NCBI RefSeq assembly: GCF_900104695.1
Contig: NZ_FNSW01000001.1
Location: forward strand, 2,418,001-2,482,000
Direction of reading: 5' to 3'
Length of the DNA stretch: 64,000 bases
Source of the DNA: Paenibacillus sp. GP183
GTDB lineage: Bacteria > Bacillota > Bacilli > Paenibacillales > NBRC-103111
Part shown: in pieces, positions 48,462 to 54,680 of the stretch
Position numbering within the stretch: position 1 is the stretch's first letter
Layout of the letters: the number at the start of each line of letters is the position of its first letter
Position numbers and translations under genes: made by a program
The notes under the pieces: model-generated
The model's input: the letters and a program-made list of their open reading frames with translations, nothing else
Told to the model about the DNA's origin: nothing
Databases searched by the model: none

Positions 48462-49679
48462 TTAAACGGCTCTAAGCTTACCCCGGTCATAAATCAGAAA
48501 GCATATCAGCCCCATACAACAAATCAGCATGAGTACAATAACCAGTACATGGAAGTTGTAATTTTCAAAAAGCAGCCCGCCTACCAAGGGTCCTATCATT
48601 CTGCCAAATGTGGAAAATCCGTTGACCATACCTTGATATATCCCATTTTTCCCTGGAGGTGCGAGCTCGGATGCCGCTGTTGGAACTACCGGCCAAAGGA
48701 AAATTTCTCCGCAAGTAATCACCATCATGCCGATCATAAAGCCTGCATAAGATGAGCTTAAGTTTAGGGTCACCAGACAAATCATAAAAAATATGACACC
48801 TGTCACCATCTGGGATTTTAACGTGGATAAAGTGCGCCGGGTTAATAATGCGATAAGCGGGGATCCGATCAGAATGAGAACACCATTAATCGTCCATAAA
48901 AGGCTGTATGATGAGATCGACAACCCCAATTGCTTCATGTAAGTCGGAATGATAACCGTCCATTGTACGTAAATCACCAAGCAGAACATAAAACCGAAGC
49001 AAAGAATCATCAAGGAAGGGAATGTGCTTTTGGCCAAATAAATAGGGGCTCCATTTGATTGAACAGCCGTCGCAGCGGTTTCATCGGAAGATTCCAGTAA
49101 CGTATCTCTCGCTTGCTTCGATATGCCAATGGCAATAATGATAAAAAAGATCACAAAGGCCAGGGCATTTACAATAAATACAACGGAAAAAGAGGTTTTT
49201 TGAGCGACAATACCGCCCATCGCCGAGCCTAGGGCTACCCCAAGATTTTGAGAAATGTACAGAAGATTAAACCCTTTTCGGCCTCCTTCCGGCCAGATTC
49301 CCTTAACGAGCGCATAAAGCGCAGGGAAATAAATACCGTTACTGAAGCCAAGAAGCGCCATTATTATAATATATGGAATCCATTCCCGAAATGACGCTAA
49401 ACCCAAAAGACACAAGCAGGACATGAAGGTCCCTATGAGAACCGTGATTTTCCCGCCAATCCGATCATGAAGATAACCGCCAAGAAGGCTTCCCAGAACA
49501 CCGGATCCTGCATAACCCATTAATACTAATGCCGATATGGAAATGGACCGTCCCAGCTCTTGAGTCATATAGATCGTATTCAAAGGCCAAAGAAAGGAGG
49601 AGCCCGTAGAGCTTATCACCGCTGCGATCGCCAAAATCCACATTTCCTTGGGATAAGCCAACTTCCATTTGCTAAACAT
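48462..49679 (-). CDS. MFS transporter (drug-efflux type)
   Basis: 405 residues, about 12 membrane segments. Loop motif A is GYLHDRIGGKITV after TM2; a substrate-channel Pro-rich loop PEGGRKGFNLLYISQNLGVALG follows TM4; ATG with GAGAGAAGG. Resembles YttB/MdtH-like multidrug exporters of Bacillales. Its own promoter lies at 49721-49750. Confidence 0.84.
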   Translation of the reverse strand: MFSKWKLAYPKEMWILAIAAVISSTGSSFLWPLNTIYMTQELGRSISISALVLMGYAGSGVLGSLLGGYLHDRIGGKITVLIGTFMSCLCLLGLASFREWIPYIIIMALLGFSNGIYFPALYALVKGIWPEGGRKGFNLLYISQNLGVALGSAMGGIVAQKTSFSVVFIVNALAFVIFFIIIAIGISKQARDTLLESSDETAATAVQSNGAPIYLAKSTFPSLMILCFGFMFCLVIYVQWTVIIPTYMKQLGLSISSYSLLWTINGVLILIGSPLIALLTRRTLSTLKSQMVTGVIFFMICLVTLNLSSSYAGFMIGMMVITCGEIFLWPVVPTAASELAPPGKNGIYQGMVNGFSTFGRMIGPLVGGLLFENYNFHVLVIVLMLICCMGLICFLIYDRGKLRAV

Positions 49680-49925: not shown

Positions 49926-50321
49926 ATGAAAAAAGTAGACGTTGTTGGCGCTGTTATATTAAACGAAAAAAACGAAGTGCTATGTGCACTTCGCTCTCAA
50001 AAGATGTCTTTGCCTGGATTGTGGGAATTCCCGGGAGGTAAGATCGAAGAAAATGAAACACCTGAAACATGCCTCATTCGAGAGATCAAGGAAGAGTTAA
50101 ACTGTACCATTGAGGTGGGAGAGCTCGTGGCAGATGCAACTCATGAATACCCAACAATAATAGTAAGGTTGATTACATATCTCTCTCGAGTCGTAGAGGG
50201 GACACCAACCGCAAATGAACATGAGAAACTCATCTGGTTACCAATGAATTCATTACATACATTGGAATGGGCACCCGCCGATCTACCAACAATTGAAGCA
50301 CTCAAGCGTACTATTCTCTAG
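49926..50321 (+). CDS. NUDIX hydrolase (MutT-like NTP pyrophosphohydrolase)
   Basis: 131 residues. Full Nudix box in GGKIEENETPETCLIREIKEEL (Gly, Glu and REIKEE residues at about 37-59). Hydrolyses nucleoside diphosphate-linked substrates such as oxidised dNTPs. TTAAGGAGC upstream. Its stop codon shares the palindrome CTAG (50318-50321) with the stop of the convergent helicase gene. Both genes look more AT-rich than their neighbours. A role with the helicase in defence or nucleic acid repair is an inference from position. Confidence 0.92.
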   Translation: MKKVDVVGAVILNEKNEVLCALRSQKMSLPGLWEFPGGKIEENETPETCLIREIKEELNCTIEVGELVADATHEYPTIIVRLITYLSRVVEGTPTANEHEKLIWLPMNSLHTLEWAPADLPTIEALKRTIL

Positions 50322-53300
50322 CGAACTAGGTCCGAATATAACGAATCAGGAATAGGATTAACCAGCTTCCAACGAATATTCATTGGCTTATCTCCGTGGC
50401 TGCTCACATAATTAATTTCACCTAAATAAGTAAAAGGTAAAACAGCACCATGCATTTCTGAAAATTTCCGAATAAATAGATGAATGTGAATGCCTTTTTC
50501 TTTATGAAAAATATATTCTTGCCCTCTCCCAGATTCGTGAGAGGTATCATTTTGACTTTGCCAATGAAAATGCTGCTGATCTTCAAAATAATCATGATAG
50601 AGCAAATGATCAGCAACTTTTTCACCTTTATTCAGGTTAATGAATAATAAATAGTGTTCTCCAACCCTGCTTACCCCTTCACGCCACGAACCCTCTTTTG
50701 CCTCAGATTCAAACAAATAAATAAGATCATTCCTTGTATAATTCTGATACAAAACAACACTTTTTTCTGCCGAAAAGAACACATTCGGTCGATATATCCT
50801 CCTAAATTCGGCTAATCCATACTCGATTCGATCTTTTATGTAAGATTTGAATGATCCATCCAGGAACATAAACTTAGCTTCATCTGAAATAACAAAGATA
50901 CCTTCTTTATATTGACCCCAGTTCCAATCGTGTTTACTGATAGAGGTTGCAAGTTTTTGCATCCCTTTTTCAATTTTTCCTTTATGAGCATCTACTGAAA
51001 TTGGAATTGCAAAACGGTATATTAAATCTGAAACTACATCATCGACCGATACTCGATCTTTTTGCAGCATAATCGATATTATGGAGCACTCGTACGGCCA
51101 TTTAATTGGCATCAAACTCTCGAGACGTTGAATCATTTGTAGCTTCCGTGCATCTAACAAAACTTCTTCATCAAACTCGTTCAAATCACTCATTTTACGC
51201 TTAGTCTCAATCCATGACCCATACTTGTTTATGAAGAAATGAAAGCTAGGTGCACCCTCAAAATATAAGAAATCATTAATCTCAGGAGAGCGACCAATCT
51301 CTTTCTTGAATTGATTATATAAGTCCATCAAGAGTAAATTACGGTCCATCCTAAGACTCTCGATTTTATTTAAAATTTGTTGTCTGGACACCTCTTCCAG
51401 ATCAACAAAACATCCATCGGGTAAGTCCGCAAATTCTGTTTCAATAGCAATTCTAAGAGAATCCCGATCAAAAGCTTTATGATTGTGTTGCCCAGTAAGT
51501 GCGAGGGGAACTATAAACGATTTATGATAATTACCAATAAAATCTAGAACAGTAACAAATGCTTTTCCTGGAACTTTTCGTAAACCACGTCCGAGTTGTT
51601 GGATGAATATAGTCGCAGATTCAGTTGGTCTTAAGAATAAAACTACATTCAGCTTCGGAATATCCACGCCTTCATTAAAAATATTAACCGTAAAAATAAT
51701 CTGCAAGGGATCTGAATCATCTTCCAATCTCGAGATAAGCTCCTGTCTTCTTTCTGGTTTATCATCCCCAGTAAGACAACCTGTCACAAACCCCCGCTTG
51801 TTAAATTCCTCAGACATATACTTAGCGTGATTAATCGAGGCGCAAAAGCATAGAGCCCTCATGATGCTTCCATCGTACCCAAACTTATGAATCATTTGGA
51901 TAATATAATCGACCCGTTCATGTGTATTCAAGGCACGAACCAGTTCATCCTCAACAAATTGACCATTATTTTGAGTTTCGACTTCGGTATAGTCCACAGT
52001 AGGATCACTTAACCCAAAATAGCGAAAAGGAGTTAGCAATTTTTCACGCAATGCTTCTCTCAAACGAATTTCATAAACTACATTATTATCACATATTGTC
52101 AATACATCTCTCCCATCCATACGATCAGGAGTGGCTGTTAGTCCTAATAGAAATTTCGGGTTAAAATAATCAATGACTTTTCTATACGTGGAAGCTTCAG
52201 CATGGTGAAACTCGTCTACAACGATATAATCAAAATAATCCGTGGGATAACTACTCAACACTTCATCCCGCGACAGGGTCTGAATCGTGCTGAATAAATA
52301 AGGCTTATCTCCTTCTTTTGAAATCCCTGTCAGCTTTCCGCTTTCCAGTCCGCTGCCAAATACATTCTCAAAAGTCTTTTTTGAGCTTTCCAGAATTTCA
52401 TCCCGATGTGCTAAAAACAACATTCGCTTAGCATCAAAATCTCTCACATCAAACGCCGACAAATACGTCTTTCCTGTTCCAGTGGCGGCAATTACAACAC
52501 CTTTTTTATGACCATTCATTCGAGTTTGCTTCAATGCATCTAGAGCATTTTGCTGCATTTGATTCGGTTCGATAGGCTTCGTTTCCGTCTGCGCATTGTC
52601 TTCCTCCAACTCAGCAAAATCCGCGTGTTGAGTAATAACAAATGGATTCACTTGCATGACCAGCTTTTTGTTATATTCTTTCTCGTATTCTTCAATAAAA
52701 GCTTCAGTAAGAGGAACGGCTTTCTCATCTTCCCAATGTTTTTGAAAGGATTGAGATGCCTTCTCATAAATCGAATTTTTCTCAATACCTGGTAGCTTCA
52801 CATTCCATTCATAACCCGTTTGCAAAGCGGAATATGACAAATTTGAAGAACCTATAATAGCTGTATGTAATCCAGAGAACCTTTCAAATAAATATGCTTT
52901 GGTATGAAAAGATACCTTTCCCGAATCAAAAACTCTAACCTCCACATTTGTGATTTCTAATAATCTCCGAAGTGCTTTTGGTTCAGTGATTTTTAAATAG
53001 GTTGAAGTTAAAATTCTTAATCTCTTTGTTTCATCAGTTTTGCGGAAATCATCAATACTTCGAATTAATAATTGCAAACCAGACCAGCGGATGAAACTTA
53101 CCATGAAATTGGCTTGCTCTGCCGTTTGTAGCTCATATTTTAATGCTTTGAATAGATTAAAAGGATCACTCTCAGCGTTTGTTAACAAATATGGATTCGA
53201 TAGGAAAAATTCTGGATAAAACGGAAGTGGTTTGTCGTCATTGCGATAATGAATCGCCTTAAGAGGCATTTGCAGCTCATTTTCTTCTACTTGCTTAACC

Positions 53301-53509
53301 AATTTTCTAAGCTCGCTCGTTAACTCAAGAATCTGGGCATATTGGTCTTTCTCGGCCAGTTGTCGATAAGCTTCATTTATTTCTTTCATAAGTTGCTGAG
53401 ACAAGGCACTGTTGTATTGTTGAGGGAGCAAAGAAAACGTATGTTGGTTATTTGGATATGTTTTGTTTTTATGTACAATTTCCTCGAAAACACCTTTATG
53501 TTCGCTCAT
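50318..53509 (-). CDS. PLD-nuclease / SF2 helicase / DUF3427 protein
   Basis: 1063 residues, GGAGG before the ATG. Domain order: N-terminal helical region (1-115); phospholipase-D-like nuclease (about 120-260) with a single HxK motif, HTKAYLF near 201, and GSSNLS near 220; SF2 helicase (about 320-700) with Walker A AATGTGKT near 345, DEFHH near 432, ATPDR, and QQLGRGLRK as motif VI; DUF3427 at the C-terminus (about 770-1060, ending in ...HLFIRKF..., TYLGEINY). Related type III restriction-like proteins occur in defence islands. No methyltransferase or specificity gene is nearby. Confidence 0.93.
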   Translation of the reverse strand: MSEHKGVFEEIVHKNKTYPNNQHTFSLLPQQYNSALSQQLMKEINEAYRQLAEKDQYAQILELTSELRKLVKQVEENELQMPLKAIHYRNDDKPLPFYPEFFLSNPYLLTNAESDPFNLFKALKYELQTAEQANFMVSFIRWSGLQLLIRSIDDFRKTDETKRLRILTSTYLKITEPKALRRLLEITNVEVRVFDSGKVSFHTKAYLFERFSGLHTAIIGSSNLSYSALQTGYEWNVKLPGIEKNSIYEKASQSFQKHWEDEKAVPLTEAFIEEYEKEYNKKLVMQVNPFVITQHADFAELEEDNAQTETKPIEPNQMQQNALDALKQTRMNGHKKGVVIAATGTGKTYLSAFDVRDFDAKRMLFLAHRDEILESSKKTFENVFGSGLESGKLTGISKEGDKPYLFSTIQTLSRDEVLSSYPTDYFDYIVVDEFHHAEASTYRKVIDYFNPKFLLGLTATPDRMDGRDVLTICDNNVVYEIRLREALREKLLTPFRYFGLSDPTVDYTEVETQNNGQFVEDELVRALNTHERVDYIIQMIHKFGYDGSIMRALCFCASINHAKYMSEEFNKRGFVTGCLTGDDKPERRQELISRLEDDSDPLQIIFTVNIFNEGVDIPKLNVVLFLRPTESATIFIQQLGRGLRKVPGKAFVTVLDFIGNYHKSFIVPLALTGQHNHKAFDRDSLRIAIETEFADLPDGCFVDLEEVSRQQILNKIESLRMDRNLLLMDLYNQFKKEIGRSPEINDFLYFEGAPSFHFFINKYGSWIETKRKMSDLNEFDEEVLLDARKLQMIQRLESLMPIKWPYECSIISIMLQKDRVSVDDVVSDLIYRFAIPISVDAHKGKIEKGMQKLATSISKHDWNWGQYKEGIFVISDEAKFMFLDGSFKSYIKDRIEYGLAEFRRIYRPNVFFSAEKSVVLYQNYTRNDLIYLFESEAKEGSWREGVSRVGEHYLLFINLNKGEKVADHLLYHDYFEDQQHFHWQSQNDTSHESGRGQEYIFHKEKGIHIHLFIRKFSEMHGAVLPFTYLGEINYVSSHGDKPMNIRWKLVNPIPDSLYSDLVR

Positions 53510-53658: not shown

Positions 53659-54549
53659 TTATACGATCTCCGAGAGATAAGGGATTCCACTTTGCGCGCC
53701 TAATCGCGTTACGGCTATGGATGAGGCATGCTGCGCCATGTCGACGGCTTCGTCGATAGTTTTGCCTGCAATGATCATCGCGGCCAGCGTCCCTGAGAAC
53801 GTATCCCCGGCAGCGGTTGTATCCACAGTCTCGACTTTGCGGCCTTCCTTGTACACGTTATCGGTCCCGTTAAAATAGACAAGTCCCCTCTCGCCAAGCG
53901 TAACCAGCGGATAACGAATTCCTTTGGCACGTAAAATGTTTAGGGCGTTAAAAGCATCATCGATGCTTTTAACATCTACCTCCGTATATAGTCGGCACTC
54001 AATTTCATTCGGGGTAAAATAGTCCACTCCCTGCAAAATGGCATCTTCGATTGGAACCGCAGGGGCTGGATTGAGGAAAATAGGCACTTTTCCTTTCACC
54101 AAATGAATCGCTTCATATACAGTTTCAATTGGAATCTCCAGCTGCAGCATGATCGCCTTGGCAGAGAGAAGCTCCTCTCTATAGCTTTGTATATATGCGG
54201 GAGTTACTTTATTGTTGGCGCCGCCGTCAAGAATAATGCTATTGTTTCCTTCGCATACCGTGATCGCGGCAATTCCTGTATTGACCCCTGGCTCGACCTT
54301 GATCAAATCTGTGTGCACGCCGAATCCCGCAAGACTGTCCATCAGGGATTGACCGAAGATATCGTCCCCCACTTTTGCCAAAAACCACGTATCCGCACCC
54401 ATCTTGGCACAAGCGACGGCTTGATTGGCTCCCTTGCCTCCAGCCGACAGGAAGAAACCATTGCCCCTAATCGTCTCGCCCATTTCCGGAATACGGCTTG
54501 TTTGCACGACCATGTCCATATTTGCGCTGCCTATCACGATGATTTTCAT
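53659..54549 (-). CDS. rbsK: Ribokinase (PfkB family)
   Basis: 296 residues from MKIIVIGSANMDMVV; sixteen more codons are open upstream but the family starts here. PfkB signatures: GGKGANQAVACAKMG near the N-terminus and DTTAAGDTFSGTLAAM with the catalytic Asp. Phosphorylates ribose (or a related sugar) using ATP. No rbs transporter genes are near. Its ATG overlaps the stop of a 44-residue ORF as ATGA. It may belong to the operon of the ABC exporter. Confidence 0.92.
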   Translation of the reverse strand: MKIIVIGSANMDMVVQTSRIPEMGETIRGNGFFLSAGGKGANQAVACAKMGADTWFLAKVGDDIFGQSLMDSLAGFGVHTDLIKVEPGVNTGIAAITVCEGNNSIILDGGANNKVTPAYIQSYREELLSAKAIMLQLEIPIETVYEAIHLVKGKVPIFLNPAPAVPIEDAILQGVDYFTPNEIECRLYTEVDVKSIDDAFNALNILRAKGIRYPLVTLGERGLVYFNGTDNVYKEGRKVETVDTTAAGDTFSGTLAAMIIAGKTIDEAVDMAQHASSIAVTRLGAQSGIPYLSEIV

Positions 54550-54680
54550 AGCTCGGTCACTCGAATATCGCGAAAGTTGGTTTGATTGAATTGCCAATTA
54601 AAAATGCCACCCACCAGCTTTTTATAACTAAAATTTTTGATTGTCCGTGAAAAAGTGCTTGAACTCTGAATAAGGGCCAT
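54546..54680 (-). CDS. 44-residue small ORF translationally coupled to ribokinase
   Basis: ATG at 54680 follows GCGAGGTAATGCA, a good ribosome binding site, and encodes 44 residues (MALIQSSSTFSRTIKNF ... NFRDIRVTEL) whose TGA overlaps the ribokinase ATG as ATGA. The ribokinase start itself has only a weak Shine-Dalgarno sequence, as expected if it depends on coupling. Mixed polar composition, no membrane helix. Could be a real small protein or the remnant of a larger gene's C-terminus. Not recognised. Confidence 0.55.
   Translation of the reverse strand: MALIQSSSTFSRTIKNFSYKKLVGGIFNWQFNQTNFRDIRVTEL

Follow-up and report, generated by a model that had tools for sequence, protein, structure and literature searches.

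The locus described here occupies positions 49926-53509 of a 64-kb stretch (64,000 nucleotides) of the Paenibacillus sp. GP183 genome, referred to below as the window, and consists of two convergent open reading frames (ORFs). The first (49926-50321, + strand) codes for a NUDIX hydrolase of 131 amino acids, the second (50318-53509, - strand) for a nuclease of 1063 amino acids. Their stop codons are interlocked in a single CTAG (50318-50321), from which TAG is read on each strand, and the pair is flanked by genes for an MFS transporter (48462-49679, - strand) and a ribokinase (53659-54597, - strand). The ORFs and their Pfam domains thus bear out an original prediction made from the sequence, which had described a protein joining a PLD-like nuclease, an SF2 helicase and DUF3427, converging on a NUDIX gene between transporter and ribokinase genes. 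Interlocked or near-touching convergent ends are also found in three family members (loci L162-L164) and in L018.

The same prediction held both genes to be richer in A/T than their flanks and to have been transferred together. Compared with the 48 genes of the window, which serve here as the baseline in place of the whole genome, the nuclease gene has the lowest GC content (37.1%, z -3.4) and the lowest GC content at third codon positions (GC3, 32.1%), and the NUDIX gene is second lowest on both (42.4%, z -1.9, and 37.9%), the means being 48.8% for GC and 53.0% for GC3. Codon usage does not match that of the window genes either: the nuclease ranks third and the NUDIX first by deviation, the latter value being noisy at 131 codons. 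Among close orthologues the two genes always occur together while the surrounding genes differ, and horizontal transfer of the NUDIX and the nuclease as one unit is therefore supported.

The 1063-residue protein is almost certainly a Type IV (modification-dependent) restriction enzyme of the SauUSI family, judging from its domains and motifs. Pfam places PLDc_2 at residues 164-259, ResIII at 313-463, Helicase_C at 546-644 and DUF3427 at 798-1061 (E = 4e-50); PADLOC assigns it to mREase_IV (PDLC03658, 3e-142), and the alignment with SauUSI (PDB ID: 7clg) spans residues 106-1037 with an E-value of 2.5e-134, leaving residues 1-105 without a counterpart. All three parts of a SauUSI-type enzyme are found, namely a PLD domain with an HxK motif (52733-53020, - strand), a central SF2 translocase/ATPase (residues 313-664; 51518-52573, - strand) and a C-terminal DUF3427, predicted to be an SRA-type reader of modified cytosine (50327-51118, - strand). 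His202 and Lys204 of the window nuclease (FHTK) correspond to the catalytic H119 and K121 of SauUSI (FHAK)(PMC7913695), and GSSN is kept in both. The SF2 motifs are intact (ATGTGKT at 342, DEFHH at 432, TATPDR at 458 and QQLGRGLR at 637), and, in a profile comparison, DUF3427 is matched to the C-terminal region of 7clg (E-value of 1.7e-58). That region of SauUSI has an SRA fold which reads 5-methylcytosine (5mC) and 5-hydroxymethylcytosine (5hmC)(PMC7913695), the ATPase translocates on DNA (PMC7913695, PMC3874153), and the enzyme requires ATP or dATP (PMC3874153) and cuts DNA carrying 5mC or 5hmC (PMC3874153, PMC7913695). As shown by this homology, the window nuclease is predicted to cut 5mC- or 5hmC-bearing DNA. 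The original prediction, which had likened the protein to the nuclease-helicase fusions of anti-phage systems, is supported as to defence and overlooked this known class (PMC3874153, PMC7913695).

The 131-residue partner is a NUDIX hydrolase of the NudG/PDC-S07 type. Pfam NUDIX covers residues 4-124 (E = 2e-21), the PADLOC candidate PDC-S07 (PDLC04899) matches over the full length of the protein (7.9e-53, positions 3-130 of 135), the best structural match is PDB ID: 5x1x (2.6e-38), and the Nudix box is intact (GGKIEENETPETCLIREIKEEL). In E. coli NudG (Orf135), the base is recognised by Glu33, Arg72, Arg77 and Asp118, and MutT uses Asn119 for the recognition of 8-oxo-guanine. In an alignment of 93 members of the group with E. 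coli NudG and MutT as references, the Nudix glutamates are intact, and all 93, including the window NUDIX, carry Asp where NudG has Asp118 and MutT its hallmark Asn119; the window NUDIX also has the equivalent of E33. The identity of the Asp/Asn position makes a MutT-type 8-oxo-dGTPase disfavoured. The reading of the gene as an ordinary MutT-like enzyme, or as a housekeeping pyrophosphohydrolase of a general kind that travels with the island, draws on database names (several genes of the group are called mutT, as for L223 and PDB ID: 5x1x) and on the MutT model TIGR00586, which scores 97.5 bits, barely under its cut-off of 97.9. The NudG equivalog model (PRK10546) stays further below its own cut-off (100 bits vs 156), and we accordingly propose that the window NUDIX would work like NudG, and make no claim that it belongs to that equivalog. 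E. coli NudG has a kcat/Km of 1.3e6 on 5-methyl-dCTP vs 4.7e4 on CTP, and the related enzyme of Bacteroides fragilis (Q5LBB1, PDB ID: 3GWY) reaches values near 4.5e6 /M/s on both 5-methyl-dCTP and 5-hydroxymethyl-dCTP (PMC5158307). By analogy, the substrate of the window NUDIX is probably a 5-substituted dCTP, 5-methyl- or 5-hydroxymethyl-dCTP.

How widespread the pairing is was determined in 398 genomes of the phylum, searched both for the nuclease and for NUDIX. Taking E <= 1e-140 as the threshold for full-length SauUSI homologues (n = 16), a NUDIX gene is directly adjacent to 14 of them; of the other two, one has a NUDIX 14 kb away and one lies in a genome without any. A contig scan with P0001 as the sole query gave 10 loci only. 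Under random placement the chance of such adjacency is about 1e-36, a figure which ignores relatedness among the genomes, and the changes of orientation are the safer argument for association: the pair occurs in three arrangements (convergent, NUDIX upstream and NUDIX downstream), and the arrangement changes at least six times on the nuclease tree. The association has therefore outlived repeated rearrangement. Among the family and order relatives of the window, NUDIX adjoins all five SauUSI-type orthologues (G442, G427, G412, G445 and G408). In S. aureus, a NUDIX 52% identical to that of the window lies directly upstream of SauUSI, whose gene is unannotated in the record examined (first open stretch, 504 codons), and on a Hymenobacter plasmid it is located 9 bp upstream of the SauUSI homologue. 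The possibility, raised with the original prediction, that the pairing is confined to Paenibacillus sp. GP183 is ruled out by its presence in the phylum genomes, S. aureus, the Hymenobacter plasmid and the close relatives, and we consider it highly likely that the NUDIX and the nuclease are functional partners. A pairing conserved in varied orientation also speaks against a MutT-like passenger. A SauUSI-like DUF3427 gene on a plasmid of Rhodobacter sp. CZR27 (L145) has no NUDIX; its neighbours are a gene of the SIR2 family and genes for plasmid mobilisation.

When all loci are combined, NUDIX adjoins 21/29 members of the SauUSI class (A), 11/35 of a second DUF3427 class (B) and 1/46 of the PLD-SF2 proteins without DUF3427, in a set which takes in relatives as well as loci fetched for carrying NUDIX (free of that bias are the counts from the phylum-wide searches, 14/16 and 7/25). 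The SauUSI class differs from the class without DUF3427 with a Fisher probability of 4e-11, and both DUF3427 classes together with 9e-9; the lone NUDIX-adjacent case in the class without DUF3427 is at a locus which also holds a SauUSI-class gene. The survey of DUF3427 proteins for adjacent or fused NUDIX genes, which the original prediction had proposed, thus finds adjacency in classes A and B, and the fusions seen are with HNH nucleases.

A second kind of partner came to light beside 69 NUDIX genes that do not adjoin a PLD-SF2 nuclease. In their 128 immediate neighbours the commonest defence family is mREase_IV, and the protein matching it is an HNH protein of about 270 amino acids. Its HNH domain is related to EcoKMcrA (PDB ID: 6ghc) and ScoMcrA, and a weak match to TagI, an SRA-HNH enzyme, covers a larger part of the protein. 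Counted in reverse, NUDIX adjoins 6 of the 9 full-length copies of this protein, and on a Priestia megaterium plasmid the two genes overlap by 4 bp. Six genomes (G002, G362, G038, G249, G273 and G388) carry the two as a single frame of 414-491 amino acids, consisting of a McrA-like HNH part, probably with SRA, and NUDIX: L239:1468-2715 (+), L240:773-2014 (-), L241:1033-2304 (-), L244:1128-2561 (+), L245:2495-3961 (-) and L246:2673-4145 (-). An identification of these frames as MutY was dropped once they proved to be HNH-NUDIX fusions; L250 alone (402 amino acids) reads as MutY. An SRA domain in the N-terminus of the HNH partner is suggested by a YTGxGxxGD-type motif and the match to TagI; the SauUSI SRA profile aligns with it colinearly, at a probability of 4% and an E-value of 0.01. 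In addition, a NUDIX 64% identical to that of the window lies directly behind a HTH-MrcB_N-HNH protein of 469 amino acids (L172:4364-5773, + strand), which may be yet another sort of modification-dependent nuclease that has a NUDIX of this kind as its partner. Since the pairing extends to SauUSI-type, McrA/TagI-like HNH and MrcB_N-HNH proteins, unrelated nucleases, joined mainly by the recognition of modified cytosine, share one kind of NUDIX partner. This is not what is expected of a passenger, which would neither track the SRA domain nor be paired with, and fused to, unrelated nucleases; together with the NudG-type Asp, it makes the MutT-like or housekeeping reading improbable. Further genes seen repeatedly next to unlinked NUDIX genes (HD domain, GGDEF/EAL, chemotaxis, GHL10 and DUF6062) look lineage-specific and were set aside.

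The branch without DUF3427 has a neighbour of its own. A small MazG-like gene, counted when within 1 kb of the nuclease match, is found near 31/46 PLD-SF2 proteins without DUF3427, vs 2/64 in the DUF3427 classes (Fisher, 8e-14). Examples from this larger set are L020:489-794 (-), L024:431-730 (-), L164:10110-10433 (+), L169:1728-2054 (+) and L170:2650-2991 (+). As expected for MazG-type pyrophosphohydrolases, the products carry an EExxE...EExAD pattern; in Pfam and the PDB they find weak matches (PRA-PH at 4e-6 in one member, MazG-like at 2e-5 in another). With NUDIX beside the DUF3427 classes and the MazG-like gene beside the branch lacking that domain, a single nuclease family thus has, in two of its branches, pyrophosphohydrolases of unrelated fold as companions. 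Human DCTPP1, which is MazG-like, acts on 5-methyl-dCTP (PMC4491611; PMC10742078). In L192 and L197 (genomes G268 and G395), L169, L170 and L164, a MazG-linked PLD-SF2 nuclease and a DUF3427-type nuclease with its NUDIX stand side by side in one island.

A role in signalling was also considered, in which the NUDIX would gate the nuclease by acting on one of its products or regulators or on a signal nucleotide (for example dATP/ATP supply, ADP-ribose or an alarmone). NUDIX enzymes elsewhere act in nucleotide signalling, and SauUSI depends on ATP or dATP (PMC3874153). However, none of the genes that recur around the pair and its relatives codes for a sensor, cyclase or effector, the nearest characterised relatives of the NUDIX are nucleotide-pool cleaners, and the neighbour of the non-SRA branch has a MazG-like fold rather than that of a signalling enzyme, so that gating of this kind is very improbable. 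A signal-based defence resembling CBASS or Thoeris was rejected for the same lack of recurring sensor and effector genes. The original prediction, which had the partner supply or remove a signal or damaged nucleotides, therefore came close as to nucleotides, 5-substituted dCTP being the best reading, and found no support as to signalling. The defence role that it gave to the pair is supported by a SauUSI-family nuclease next to a NUDIX from a listed family of phage-defence candidates.

With a modest degree of confidence, we favour the interpretation that the two genes form a module for Type IV restriction, in which a SauUSI-type nuclease is combined with a NUDIX that protects the host by cleaning 5-methyl- and 5-hydroxymethyl-dCTP from the pool. 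The SRA domain would recognise 5-methyl- or 5-hydroxymethyl-cytosine, and the ATP-driven enzyme would move along the incoming marked DNA and cut it. The NUDIX would hydrolyse 5-methyl-dCTP and 5-hydroxymethyl-dCTP to the monophosphates, and would thereby bar modified cytosine derived from degraded foreign DNA, from salvage or from the cell's own methylated DNA from entering the chromosome; during infection it may also eliminate the phage's modified nucleotides. As a Type IV system comes without a methyltransferase to shield the host and is endangered by stray marks, cleaning of the pool would keep 'self' unmarked. This reading is supported by NUDIX adjacency following the SRA reader domain, and by the fusion of relatives to other nucleases linked to modified cytosine. 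That self-protection is the main purpose of the NUDIX is a tentative proposal, if a plausible one.

Its main rival is phage nucleotide depletion, whereby the NUDIX would destroy the modified deoxynucleoside triphosphates of T-even-like or XP12-like phages, forcing them to use plain cytosine or stalling them, and the nuclease would attack the DNA that is still marked, self-protection being incidental. The enzymology is the same (PMC5158307), some copies are plasmid-borne, modified phages would be blocked at two stages, and a review has raised the possibility that phages are detected through the 5-hydroxymethyl-dCTP pool of T-even infection (PMC12707154). On the other hand, blocking the modification strips off the mark that the nuclease needs, so that the two layers partly conflict, and neither gene association nor fusion sets this reading apart from self-protection: both use the same chemistry, and genomics cannot separate them. 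We consider a purely offensive pair rather unlikely.

The genome offers a possible reason for self-protection. Although no methyltransferase gene was found adjoining the NUDIX-nuclease pair at the window locus, a 398-kb contig (C2) of Paenibacillus sp. GP183 carries two C5-cytosine methyltransferase genes, both next to a gene for Vsr. One belongs to an NgoFVII/CglI-like restriction locus (L167:2368-7087), where a Z1 ATPase and a PLD nuclease resembling NgoFVII are encoded upstream of the methyltransferase and Vsr genes, and the other to a similar locus with genes of like size (L168:2128-6825). With 5mC of its own, the host would itself generate methylated nucleotides and so have a reason to clean the pool. 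The recognition sequence of NgoFVII and CglI, GCSGC, would overlap the target of SauUSI, S-5(h)mC-NGS.

Several observations weigh against a host-protecting, 5-methyl-dCTP-cleaning NUDIX. If the host methyltransferases are active on S-5mC-NGS, the window nuclease must differ in specificity or be restrained, and self-protection would presuppose a source of 5-methyl-dCTP in an uninfected bacterium. The substrate is assigned to the group from its characterised relatives, to which similarity is moderate (E of about 1e-20 for NudG and 1e-18 for the 3GWY enzyme), and the columns of NudG R72 and R77 hold H and I, so that specificity could differ. Homologues without a NUDIX neighbour exist (L010/L124, where it is 14 kb away, L015, L037, L038 and L145), and adjacency in only about a third of class B indicates that the NUDIX is not strictly required. 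Finally, the matches behind the probable SRA domain of the HNH partner are weak.

To our knowledge, Type IV restriction enzymes have long been regarded as working without a protective partner. The present data allow a more general proposal, which we advance with some reserve: Type IV enzymes would commonly have a pool pyrophosphohydrolase as a partner (NUDIX for the SRA type, MazG-like for another branch), which would keep modified cytosine out of host DNA, 'self' being set by the cleaning of precursors rather than by the marking of DNA, and some HNH-type enzymes would have fused both functions. If this is true, a general partner that confers immunity would be added to Type IV restriction, the counterpart of the methyltransferase in classical restriction-modification (RM) systems but with nucleotides rather than DNA as its target, and PDC-S07, an unexplained single-gene candidate in several defence surveys, would gain a mechanism. 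It would also help to explain how a nuclease triggered by 5mC can be kept without harm, and to predict which strains tolerate modified DNA.

Among known systems, the window nuclease is closest to SauUSI, with which it shares the PLD-SF2-DUF3427/SRA architecture, near full-length homology, the catalytic HxK and the SF2 motifs. It differs by an N-terminal extension of about 105 residues and by a convergent NUDIX, which in S. aureus is directly upstream, and the two are distant in sequence. The window NUDIX matches PDC-S07 over its whole length; the latter is listed as a single-gene candidate without a mechanism, whereas the present analysis links it with modified-cytosine nucleases, to which some relatives are fused. 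A 2026 report on S. suis found PDC-S07 co-localised with Type IV RM in 23/23 cases, without a mechanism or mention of NUDIX (PMC12813430). E. coli NudG and B. fragilis Q5LBB1 are related hydrolases, and the equivalents of NudG E33 and D118 are kept; unlike the window gene, E. coli nudG is not beside a nuclease, and its R72 and R77 are not conserved here. EcoKMcrA, ScoMcrA and TagI resemble the alternative partner of the NUDIX family, in the HNH domain and, weakly, in the SRA region of TagI; their nuclease fold is unrelated to that of the window enzyme and is not present in the window. DCTPP1, a human 5-methyl-dCTPase, offers by analogy the same logic for the MazG-like gene of the non-SRA branch, in a fold different from that of the window NUDIX. 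Nothing further of relevance on NUDIX or MazG with Type IV restriction, or on NUDIX with HNH and 5-methylcytosine, was found in the open-access full-text literature. SauUSI and its architecture, PDC-S07 as a candidate and the co-localisation in S. suis are thus known already, while the breadth of the pairing, the switch of partners, the fusions, the MazG parallel and the reading as pool sanitation appear new.

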